Shown here in pieces: positions 661 to 5,762 of a stretch of DNA of 64,000 nucleotides (positions are counted from its first letter, which is position 1; the number at the start of each line of letters is the position of its first letter). Source of the DNA: Deltaproteobacteria bacterium (GTDB lineage Bacteria > Desulfobacterota > Desulfarculia > Adiutricales > Adiutricaceae); the NCBI GenBank assembly GCA_031278635.1, contig JAITKA010000064.1:1-64000 (forward strand), read 5' to 3'. The translations under genes and the position numbers were made by a program. The notes beneath the pieces are model-generated. The model was not told the origin of the DNA. It ran no database searches and saw only the letters and a program-made list of their open reading frames with translations.

Positions 661-1680
661 TTACGCGTTACGCCATTTGGGGGCGTAGGGGTCGGCCGGG
701 AAGCCGCTTTCGAGGGCGTCCCGGATGCCGGCCATGCCCTCAAGGATGGTAAGGGAGGGCTCGAAATTCAGGACCTGTTTTATTTTGGAGAACTTCACGA
801 AGTAGTCCCGTAAATCGGGGACTGCGGGCTCGTAGGTCACGTGGGCGTCCGGCCTAAGTTTGAGGAGAAGGTCGCCCAAATCTTTGAACTGGATATTTTG
901 CTCGTCCGAGCCGACGTTGAAAATTTGGCGATCCACCAGGTCGGCCGGGGCCTCCAGGGTCAGCCTAAAGGCTTTGGCCACGTCGGATACGTGGACGAGG
1001 GGCCGCCACTGCTCGCCGGAAAAGATCTTGGCCTGACCCCTTAGGGTAATGTCCCTCACGAGGAGGTTCACGGCCAGATCGAAGCGGGGCCTGGGGGAGA
1101 TGCCGTAGACGGTGGCCAGCCTTAAGACGGTGGGGGAAAAGGAGGGATTTTTGGAAACGGAAAGGATCCTTTCCTCGGCCCTGGCCTTAAGTTCGGCGTA
1201 AAGGGATATGGGGGCCAAGGGGGACTGCTCGTCCAGCTTTTCACCTTCCCTTGTGCCGTAACAGGAGTCGGTGGAGGTGAATATGAACCGGCTGACGCCC
1301 TGCCGGGAGGCGGTCTCCAAGAGGTTTAGGGCGGCCAGATAGTTGACCTCAAGGGCTGCGTCGGGGTTACGGTCGCAGGCGGGCTCGCCCACCAGGGCGG
1401 CCAGGAGGATCACGGCCGAGTGGCCCTTCACGGTGGCGTTAACCAGGGAGATGTCCCTTACGTCGCCGTGGACGATAGTAAGGCCCGGCTTGTTGGCTAT
1501 GAAATCGAGGGGCTCGGGCCCGTGAAGGAGCGAGTCCAGGACGGTCAGCCCATAGCCCGCCGAAAGGAGTTCCGAGACTATGGGGAGACCCACGTAACCG
1601 GCACCGCCGACGATTAAGACTTTGCCGGGGGGTGCGGGTATGGGCGAGGGGTCCGGTAAGGCGTTTTGATTTTCGTTCAT
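661..1680 (-). CDS. NAD-dependent epimerase/dehydratase (extended SDR)
   Basis: GGAGYVG nucleotide-binding motif near the N-terminus, SLYAELKARAE (YxxxK-type) motif, 339 aa ORF. Confidence 0.85.
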   Translation of the reverse strand: MNENQNALPDPSPIPAPPGKVLIVGGAGYVGLPIVSELLSAGYGLTVLDSLLHGPEPLDFIANKPGLTIVHGDVRDISLVNATVKGHSAVILLAALVGEPACDRNPDAALEVNYLAALNLLETASRQGVSRFIFTSTDSCYGTREGEKLDEQSPLAPISLYAELKARAEERILSVSKNPSFSPTVLRLATVYGISPRPRFDLAVNLLVRDITLRGQAKIFSGEQWRPLVHVSDVAKAFRLTLEAPADLVDRQIFNVGSDEQNIQFKDLGDLLLKLRPDAHVTYEPAVPDLRDYFVKFSKIKQVLNFEPSLTILEGMAGIRDALESGFPADPYAPKWRNA

Positions 1681-2871
1681 GGTGAGATGACCAGCCGGGA
1701 ATATTTAATGGTTGGGGAAAACTATGCAAAAAAAACCGAACGTCCGTATGGCCACGGCCTAAAAAAACGTCCGAATAAACTACATTATATATGGGCGCTT
1801 AGCCAGGATCGGTGAAAAAAGCCCCTTCGGTGGGGCGAATAAAACCTTAGGCCAGAGGCGAAAAAGCGAGGTCCGATCCCGGTAGGCTGTGTCAGGGAGA
1901 GGTTAAACCGCTCCGCTGGGTGGCCATGATTTAGTCGCGGCCTACGATAAACCGGGCGAAAGGCGGCCGGCCGCTTAACCCCAACAGGGCGTAAAACTTA
2001 ACGTTTCCGTGCCCGGATGGGGATTCCGCCGGGTTAGGGAGGCGACGCGGCGGTGCCTGGCTTTCGAGCCCTCGCTGCGTGGGGTAGCCATGGCCTAGCC
2101 GTTATGGGAACCATGGATCTAAGCCAGCGGTTTTTTTGGAGAAAAAAAACAAGCTTGGACCAAAGCCTTTAGCCGTGTGAATTTTAACACAAAGCTGGGT
2201 TAATGGTAAGTGGCCGGATTGTTGGGGAAGCGAAGGTTTGGCACGTTTCAGGTAGGCGGTGGTAAGGAGGTATTGTCGATACGACCTAATTTTTTATTTG
2301 GTGAAAAGTTGTATGTGGTTAAGTTGTTTGACTAAAAAAATGCTGGGGGTATTGCCGTTTGACAGGATAAAAGTGTATATTGACATGTCAAAAGAAAATC
2401 TAAATCTTGCAGCGAACGTTCGTTAGCTCAAAAAGCCTCGAAAAATCAGCGATTTGATATTTTACTGCGTGGATTTGTGGATCAGGTGATTAAAAAAAAC
2501 ATTTAAATTTAAAGTAAAAAAATGTTATGATATTTCCTACTTAAAACGACCGATATCGACTCGAAATTTCGAGACGTTCCGGTTCCGGACTGAACTTTGA
2601 TTGAAAACCTTAAAGCCGCGCCGCAAACGTTGTCAAAATAAAAGGTTCGGTTCCCGGAAAATCCTAGAATAACAGAATGAAGGCGAAATTACCCGTCCGG
2701 CGTATCGCGGCGAGTATAAGGCGAAAACGAAGGGCGATTAAGCCGCCGATTTCTGGATCAATCAATACCGGCCCGTTTGGGCCAAGTCGCAAAGTGGGTT
2801 TTGGCGCATTGAAACAGGTGCCCCAGACCGTATTTTCGCATTCATTACTCCAAAGGAGAAGGGGAAGAATC

Positions 2872-3084
2872 ATGAAAGTTAACGGCGAAGCGTTCAAAGA
2901 GGCCAGGCTAAATAAGCTGATGAGCAAGTTACATCTAGCCAGCAGTTCCGGCGTGTCTCCCAACATTATTAAAAACATAGAACTCGGCAAGACCGCCAGA
3001 CCGGATCTAATCCGCAAGGTCGTTCTCGCCCTGGGCTTAACCGTCGAGGAGGCCTTCGAGAAAAAGATGGTAAAACACAATTGA
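2872..3084 (+). CDS. small XRE/Cro-like HTH protein (copy A)
   Basis: ~70 aa MKVNGEAFKEARLNKLMSKLHLASSSGVSPNIIKNIELGK...; HTH pattern; purine-rich RBS (aggagaagggg) upstream of ATG; ORF track start at 2677 is probably too long. Confidence 0.7.
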   Translation: MKVNGEAFKEARLNKLMSKLHLASSSGVSPNIIKNIELGKTARPDLIRKVVLALGLTVEEAFEKKMVKHN

Positions 3085-3201
3085 TAATGCTATAAAAGAC
3101 CCTGATTTAAAATAAAATAACGATTAGACTTGTAATTGCGATATTTAATATGCTATAGGCTAAAATTAGGGGATTTTATACATTCGTCAAGGGTAAACTA
3201 T

Positions 3202-3245
3202 ACAATGACGCGTTCGCCAAAACACCAAGGCGAACGCGTCATTGT
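3202..3245. repeat. perfect 17-bp inverted repeat
   Basis: ACAATGACGCGTTCGCC-aaaacaccaa-GGCGAACGCGTCATTGT. Confidence 0.9.
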
Positions 3246-3894
3246 TTTCCAGGGGTTGGCTAGGCCCAAAAATGCGTCGGGAGTCCTGGGCAAAAGATAC
3301 GGGTGGCCCTCGCTTGGTTGGTTTTAGGGAGGTGAGGATTTTAAATTAATTGTCAAGTAAATAAGGTAACGTATTCGCTGGTGCGAAAAGCCAATGATTC
3401 GTTGGCCCAGGATAATTTTTCATCAATAAATTTAACTGAACAGATTTAGATGATCATAAAAAGGCTCTTGATTTAGGCTGATCGAAATTTCGCTACGATA
3501 AATCGTAGGAATAGATCGGAAAGTATGGAGGGTTAGCTGTAATTTTTGTCATGCGAAATTGATTCAAGCTGGAATTATCTGAAAGTCATGGGGAGCGTTA
3601 AAAATTTTCGCATTTAATTTTAGATATTTAAAAATAATTTCCTGAAAGCTCGGCGCATTTAAATTGTCAATAAAATATGACAAAACGTACCGGTTCCGGC
3701 CCCAATTTTGAGAGATGATTTTAAGGCCACACAGCTTGCGCTAATATTTCCGGAAGGTTTGGTTCGAGAAAACTCCCATTGATTCAAAGAGGCCCAGTTT
3801 GGCCCAAACCGTAAAGCCGGTTTGGGCCTTTTGATACACGCGCACCAGATCGTATTTTCGGGTTCACGGCACCTAAGGGGAAGGATCCTACAGT

Positions 3895-4415
3895 TAACGG
3901 CGAAGCGACTAGGGAAGCTAATACATGGCGCCGTTAACATCTGCCGGAAGAGCATCTGCCGGAAGAATTTTTTGGCCTTAACCCGGGCGCCCTTACCGGA
4001 AAATTGGCCATGATAATGTCCGGCCCCTCACGTATCCCGCGACAATCCACGACTTCTTCTACGTTTTCATCGTTTCAATGGACGCACCTGTCCAGGCACC
4101 AGGAAACGAGACCAACCAACCCTATTTCGGCCATGATAGACCAGTCGTCGAATCGCCCGAATGACGGTATGTCGGTTACGACGGTTGTTTTAGGCATATA
4201 TCCCGGCGGGGATTTTCTGTGGGGGGCGGGGTAGTGGGGAGAATGAATCGTCATGGCCGTCATGGCCGTCATGGCCGGTTAAATCCCTTCGGCCTCGCTA
4301 GCCCCCCCGTCGCAAAAACGTTTCCGCTCCTGGCCGCCCCGGGCTCGTGACGGTGGCTCTGGCCCTGGGCTTGACTGCAAGGGAGGCTTTCGAAAAAAAA
4401 GAGGGTAAACGGAAC
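3895..4415 (+). pseudogene. decayed XRE-like HTH gene (copy B)
   Basis: 'gttaacggcgaagcg' at ~3893-3907 matches the copy A start without its ATG; 'gtggctctggccctgggcttgactgcaagggaggctttcgaaaaaaaa' at ~4352-4400 matches the copy A C-terminus (VALALGLTAREAFEKK); ~400 bp of unrelated sequence lies between. Confidence 0.6.
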
Positions 4416-5237
4416 CTATAATCGTATAAAATAGCACGATAAAAATAAATAGATTTCAATAGTAATATATTATTGTCCTAAAGCCAAATGATTGGCGAAA
4501 ATTATACTTTCGTCAAGGGGAAACCATGGAGCGACACATGCGCCAATGGTTTGTGGCGGAAGCGTCGCTCGCCGGCGGGGCCGGAGGAGGGAAATGCCCA
4601 ATGATTACGTGGTATTGGGCGTGTGTGTTCACCTGGATCGCAGAAGATTCGGCGGGGTTTTTGTTTGGGTCGGTTGGGGAAATGAAATTGATGGCTGGGC
4701 AAAAGGGCAAAGATTTTGCTGGGCGTGACAAAATTATATCAATAATTTAAGGGTGTTATGATAGAGAAATTAAAGTATGTCGGATTATGTTGGCGAAATA
4801 AAAATTTCGCGGCGACAAATTTGGACGTTAGATGGGAAATTTTGAAGGTTTAGGTCGGGTTTTGTCTAGCGCGAAAAAAATATTTTTGGCGGGAAGGGGG
4901 GCAAAAAGGGGCGGGCAGGATGGGGTTTTCGCGTTTAATATTGGGGTGTTAGTGTGAATGGGGTTGCGAATGTGGGGCGTTCGGGAGGGCGAATGATTTG
5001 ATCGGGGCAAAAAAAAGACTTGAAATTTCAAACGATCAATCGTAAGATCTCGCTCCCAAAAACATGGGGGTTCCCTTGGATTGGAACGATCGTTTTGTCG
5101 TCCGTACGAAGATTGCTTAAGGGCGATGGAAACGGTGCAAAGATCGGGGATTAAGCGCGGGCAGGCCGATTGCGGCTTATGGCAATGGACCGGCCCGTAC
5201 CATCAAACCGAGAGCGGTTACCACAAAGGAGAATCCT

Positions 5238-5459
5238 ATGTCGCTTGTTCACGTTAACGGAGAGGCTTTTTTCGAGGCGAGACTCGAGAGGTTTTTAAGC
5301 CAGGAAGCCTTGGCCGGGAAAGCCGGCGTTTCTTCCAATGCCATCAAAAGGATGGAAAGGGGCCAAAAAATCGGTTCCGAGATTACCCGCAAGGTGCTCA
5401 TGGCCTTGGGTATTAGCGTCAAGGAGGCTTTGGAGAAAAAGTTCGTTAGGTTTGGCTGA
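5238..5459 (+). CDS. small XRE/Cro-like HTH protein (copy C)
   Basis: 73 aa MSLVHVNGEAFFEARLERFLSQEALAGKAGVSSNAIKRMERGQK..., paralogous to copy A; RBS 'aaaggag' upstream. Confidence 0.75.
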   Translation: MSLVHVNGEAFFEARLERFLSQEALAGKAGVSSNAIKRMERGQKIGSEITRKVLMALGISVKEALEKKFVRFG

Positions 5460-5762
5460 GCGTTGGTGACCGCGGGAAGGCGGGCGCGGCCGGACGGGGG
5501 CAGGCGATTGCCCTTTCGGATGGTACACCCGCGAGTTGGCTAGGCGCGGTGCCGTTTGGGCCATGACCCGTGAGGGGAAATGGCCTGGCGGGAACGTGGC
5601 CGGCGATTGCATCAACCGAAATGGTCAAGGATTGGCCCCAACGCGTCCCCCATGGCTTGGGCCGGGGGGACGCGCTGGGGATTTTTTTTGTGGGGGGAGG
5701 GAAAGGCTTTTGGTGGGGGCGTTTGGGAGGGAAAGGTATGGGAGGCGCCGGGGCGTGATATA

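Follow-up and report, generated by a model that had tools for sequence, protein, structure and literature searches.

The locus between an epimerase gene and priA in the stretch of DNA analysed here (64,000 nucleotides, hereafter called the window) raises the question whether its small XRE genes are copies of one regulatory cassette, each controlled by its own product through a common palindrome, or a set of separate units. A first-pass annotation described three equal copies of one module, A, B and C, that share a palindrome and of which B is decaying. In our analysis A and C are best read as XRE genes that each stand alone, regulate themselves and have a long structured leader, which is a known kind of system (probability roughly 0.6). 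Of the three equal copies, what stands is that B contains a duplicate of the A type; B as a whole is composite, and C is an older and distant paralog.

Setting and genes of the locus

The genome to which the window belongs, as contig 41, is 3.4 Mb in size and 92% complete, and relatives of its PriA protein occur in MAGs that carry the name Deltaproteobacteria or Candidatus Adiutrix. Termite guts are the known habitat of the published family Adiutricaceae (PMC9137090). Going by the PriA relatives, the genome would fall into this family, and the organism, a gut bacterium, probably comes from a termite. The features of the intact units are as follows.

661–1680, minus strand: epimerase gene, one flank of the XRE locus (priA forms the other)
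2502–2531, plus strand: promoter of A from a promoter scan, TTTAAA-18-TATGAT, with TG before the -10 (extended -10)
2560–2573, no strand assigned: CTCGAAATTTCGAG, a perfect palindrome about 29 bp past the -10, proposed operator of A
2574–2871, plus strand: 5' leader of A, predicted to be structured
2872–3084, plus strand: gene A, 70-aa XRE/HTH_3 protein (Pfam HTH_3, 26.7 bits)
3203–3248, plus strand: intrinsic terminator of A, a perfect 16-bp stem followed by TTTT
5020–5048, plus strand: promoter of C from a promoter scan, TTGAAA-17-TAAGAT, with the same architecture in sister modules
5049–5237, plus strand: leader of C, about 190 nt, with a TTGGATTGGAACG...GTT piece common to sister modules
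5238–5459, plus strand: gene C, 73-aa XRE/HTH_3 protein (Pfam HTH_3, 30.2 bits)
5638–5695, plus strand: probable intrinsic terminator after C, read from the sequence as a long GC stem followed by TTTTTTTT, separating C from priA

Both proteins score above the HTH_3 gathering threshold of 23 bits, and the promoters of the two genes were detected independently. Orthologs of A occupy the same place in the congeners G001 (88% identical) and G006 (83%), where the promoter block is 76–78% identical to that of the window and the -10 reads TATAAT. Purifying selection acts strongly on gene A (pN/pS 0.13–0.16) and less so on the other XRE genes of the locus. C groups with the XRE gene just upstream of priA in G005 (63% identity, support 99/98). 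In a tree of 39 XRE proteins, built from few alignment columns and unsure in its inner forks, A, the B and D genes of the sister species, C and the G005 gene form one clade (98/98), separate from the remaining XRE families in these genomes. The position between the epimerase gene and priA is conserved for these genes, and the place beside priA is also found in another genus (G016). The XRE genes of the locus were expanded and replaced in situ. The proposal that the whole module was duplicated, C included, is not supported: C matches A only over the coding sequence and the ribosome-binding site (62%). A separate repeat family, direct repeats about 290 bp apart and 70–87% identical, lies at 77–522 of the window.

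The palindromes at A and C

The palindromes were correctly placed by the first-pass annotation, with CTCGAAATTTCGAG at 2560–2573, CGAAATTTCG at 3483–3492 and TTGAAATTTCAA at 5020–5031, and the second palindrome ACGATnnATCGT indeed occurs in the window only at B (3495–3506) and C (5032–5043). Their common core, the 8-mer GAAATTTC, has exactly three occurrences in the 64 kb of the window, all at this locus (2563, 3484 and 5022). When the AT-rich region 1681–5237 was shuffled with preservation of dinucleotides, this fixed word was obtained at least three times with P=0.002, and some 8-bp palindrome at least three times with P=0.14. Genome-wide, moreover, GAAATTTC has 53 sites and the reversed control 33, so that the common 8-mer, taken by itself, is weak as evidence. 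Most other XRE paralogs lack the core in their upstream regions; in this genome it precedes none of them, and the exception is found in two congeners, where GAGAAATTTCTC lies upstream of a different paralog. That palindrome is found about 153 nt before the start codon of paralog H, just after a TTGACC-17-TAAAAT promoter (L099 in G004, L118 in G002). Upstream of yet another paralog, I, six congeners (e.g. L127) carry a TTAGA-N6-TCTAA inverted repeat between a TTGATT -35 and the -10, conserved with some base changes and likely another operator.

It may tentatively be proposed that the sharing of GAAATTTC reflects coincidence together with a common promoter ancestry of B and C, without a shared binding protein, which would be compatible with autoregulation of A. 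The chance figures above and the alignment of the B site with the C promoter point this way, whereas the A and C sites are alike over 22 nt (shuffle p 1.3e-3) and their proteins are paralogs.

Strong evidence at the sequence level comes instead from the 14-mer at A. CTCGAAATTTCGAG is identical and in the same position in the sister species G001 and G006, where its symmetry extends to 16 bp, and it always lies about 300–315 nt upstream of the ATG of A. The leader that follows it is only 52–55% identical between the window and these two species (75% between G001 and G006). With at most one mismatch allowed, the three genomes contain one copy each, always at A; a regulon search with the 14-mer in these genomes gave no second site, and the other four congeners lack the sequence. 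A single copy per genome, unchanged amid a diverged leader, is what a dedicated operator should leave as its footprint, and this comparison with relatives establishes CTCGAAATTTCGAG as a real, constrained site.

We propose that A and C are each transcribed from their own sigma-70-type promoter. The mRNAs would be short, ending at a strong hairpin terminator, with a leader (about 190–335 nt, the latter value for A) that roughly equals or exceeds the gene, of about 70 codons, in length. Most likely, a dimer of the A protein would bind CTCGAAATTTCGAG just 3' of its own transcription start and repress, rather than activate, its own synthesis; the single site per genome suggests that the promoter of A is its main target. 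XRE proteins generally regulate their own genes via palindromes located upstream (Wang et al. 2025, PMC12565409), and this pattern, together with the HTH_3 fold and the lack of adjacent partner genes, makes autorepression of A the most likely reading. C would probably act likewise, via TTGAAATTTCAA over the -35 and/or the palindrome in the spacer, and autorepression is plausible there. The earlier description as a self-contained autoregulated cassette fits A best of all readings and is plausible in the case of C; each unit has its own promoter, site, coding sequence and terminator.

The main caveat to CTCGAAATTTCGAG as the operator of A is provided by the orthologs in G002, G003 and G004. These proteins are 66–75% identical to A and have a near-identical recognition helix (SPNIIKN/SPNIVKN), yet within 700 bp a site resembling CTCGAAATTTCGAG is absent. 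This would fit control of A by some other cellular regulator that binds CTCGAAATTTCGAG, which we consider unlikely: with the palindrome present once per genome and only with A, such a regulator would have to be dedicated to one target.

Since CTCGAAATTTCGAG lies 3' of the predicted start and some 300 nt from the ATG, an RNA function in the leader is also possible. In its explicit form, the mRNA copy of CTCGAAATTTCGAG would fold into a small 5' stem-loop (CUCGA-AAUU-UCGAG) and thereby protect the transcript or set its pace, the long structured leader being the regulatory element. The consensus fold of the A leader is more stable than that of column shuffles (z about -4.6, from three sequences), and the leaders of the locus sets generally gave z values of -3 to -6 in this test, in which each set had only two or three sequences and the shuffles did not preserve dinucleotides; stable folding is for this reason a lead only. 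Rfam scans of the XRE locus in three genomes gave no significant match. The stem-loop itself shows no compensatory changes, and the AATT centre, its would-be loop, is invariant and symmetric. The 16-bp symmetry in G001 and G006 would be explained by binding of a protein dimer to DNA and is not needed for an RNA loop; a role as stem-loop seems improbable.

C differs from A. TTGAAATTTCAA overlies the -35 of the C promoter and ACGATcaATCGT (5032–5043) occupies the spacer. The -35 element ACTTGAWATTTC, followed after 17–18 nt by a -10, is also found before a G005 XRE gene, the B-type XRE genes of G001 and G006 and a conserved 55-aa ORF, and the C-type promoter is common to six modules in four genomes. 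A search of seven genomes with the C-type version of the motif gave ten matches, half of them at this locus (reversed control, five in all); none of the five matches outside the locus is linked to an XRE module. The left half of the element and the TTTC are conserved, the right half varies in relatives, and the palindrome is perfect in the window only. Because the right half is not conserved, the comparison supports the promoter element well and makes an operator at C only probable.

The 55-aa ORF (MLELGGEDKINHL...) is located between A and the B-type XRE gene in L088 (G001) and L089 (G006), with 64% identity, a pN/pS of 0.43 and its own C-type promoter. It has no match in PHROGs, PADLOC or NCBIfam, occurs in no other of 60 genomes searched, and has left no convincing remnant in the window. 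Just upstream of priA, L088 and L089 also contain an orphan C-type promoter (ACTTGTAATGTC / CCTTGAATTGTC) without an XRE gene directly after it.

The relic B

The remains of B comprise three pieces.

3483–3516, plus strand: remnant of a C-type promoter, TCGAAA-18-TAGGAA, holding the GAAATTTC and ACGATaaATCGT of B
3685–3907, plus strand: A-type leader and first few codons, start codon missing (blastn, 64% and 73% to the A leader)
4323–4546, plus strand: C-terminal codons (about 42–70 of A) and A-type 3' region with a decayed hairpin (tblastn 62%, blastn 69%)

The similarity of B to A in the leader and downstream, noted before, is real and amounts in blastn to 64% DNA identity over 2574–2664 versus 3685–3776, 73% over 2770–2892 versus 3791–3907 and 69% over 3018–3220 versus 4352–4546; CCGGTTCCGG is found at both 2579 and 3690. 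Its decay is confirmed as well, since B lacks both the start codon and the central part of the gene. The palindrome at 3483 was regarded as the counterpart of that of A. Some 200 bp separate it from the A-like leader further downstream, and since there is none directly before that leader, it does not correspond to the palindrome of A. The promoter remnant aligns with the C promoter instead, over 27 nt including ACGATnAATCGT (shuffle p about 7e-4). The same stretch has an alternative, stronger alignment to about 4802–4877, so that the remnant may have had another history. Judged from sequence comparison, B is a composite relic, consisting of a C-type promoter remnant with its palindrome followed by a decayed duplicate of A. 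Inside it lies a foreign stretch of about 415 bp (3908–4322), which has only short matches elsewhere and contains no identifiable insertion element. A terminator-like hairpin with TTTT at 3801–3828, within the B leader, is possibly the remnant of an attenuator.

We envisage a clade whose genes are copied, diverge and decay without leaving their place beside priA, B being what remains of one such event. A stronger proposal, that the array consists of fast-turning independent XRE units in which regulator and operator co-diverge, similar to incompatibility or immunity specificities, and in which the leader RNA is regulatory, appears improbable. If autoregulation of A and C is correct, the locus offers a small and clean test set for the co-evolution of small HTH repressors and their sites, since sister species carry paralogous XRE genes there whose promoter palindromes diverge, and it also shows that a regulator gene has kept company with priA in two related genera; otherwise the system is ordinary bacterial autoregulation.

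Relation to known regulators

That the XRE genes are antitoxins or phage-type repressors bereft of their partners (orphan HipB/HigA or Cro-like) is improbable, since the weak similarity to couple_hipB and RstR, and to HigA, HipB, 434 Cro and C.BclI in the PDB, together with the presence of an ORF of unknown family (the 55-aa one) in the G001 and G006 locus, has to be set against scores that all lie far below family cut-offs, the absence of an adjacent toxin or endonuclease gene, the strong purifying selection on A and the lack of a phage relative in one IMG/VR scan.

The AlphaFold model (pLDDT 90) has a fold close to C.BclI, C.Esp1396I, ClgR and 434 Cro. Controller proteins of type II restriction–modification systems (C.BclI, C.Esp1396I) agree with the proteins described here in size (about 75 aa), in predicted fold and in a palindromic site at their own promoter; here there is no adjacent restriction or methyltransferase gene, and the match to PADLOC Control_protein is weak. 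Identity as such a controller was rejected, the neighbours being the epimerase gene and priA. HipB and HigA antitoxins share the XRE fold, and autorepression via an upstream palindrome is their known mode of action. The first-pass annotation correctly noted that A and C lack a toxin-like partner: in the window, neither has an endonuclease, methyltransferase, toxin or phage gene next to it. The identity as type II antitoxin was likewise rejected, with couple_hipB scores of 21–27 bits against a cut-off of 71.65 and terminators that isolate A and C. Phage repressors of the Cro/CI type are similar in size and fold (434 Cro), whereas here the genes have a conserved chromosomal place beside priA, without phage genes next to it. 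Matches to PHROG HTH families were found and are weak. Another close parallel is with autoregulated XRE regulators (Wang et al. 2025, PMC12565409), in which a small HTH protein likewise has a palindromic motif upstream of the gene that encodes it. At its own promoter A has a conserved palindrome in three species and C a conserved -35 element; the differences from the published systems are that these are single-gene units, arranged in a local tandem array and preceded by long leaders.
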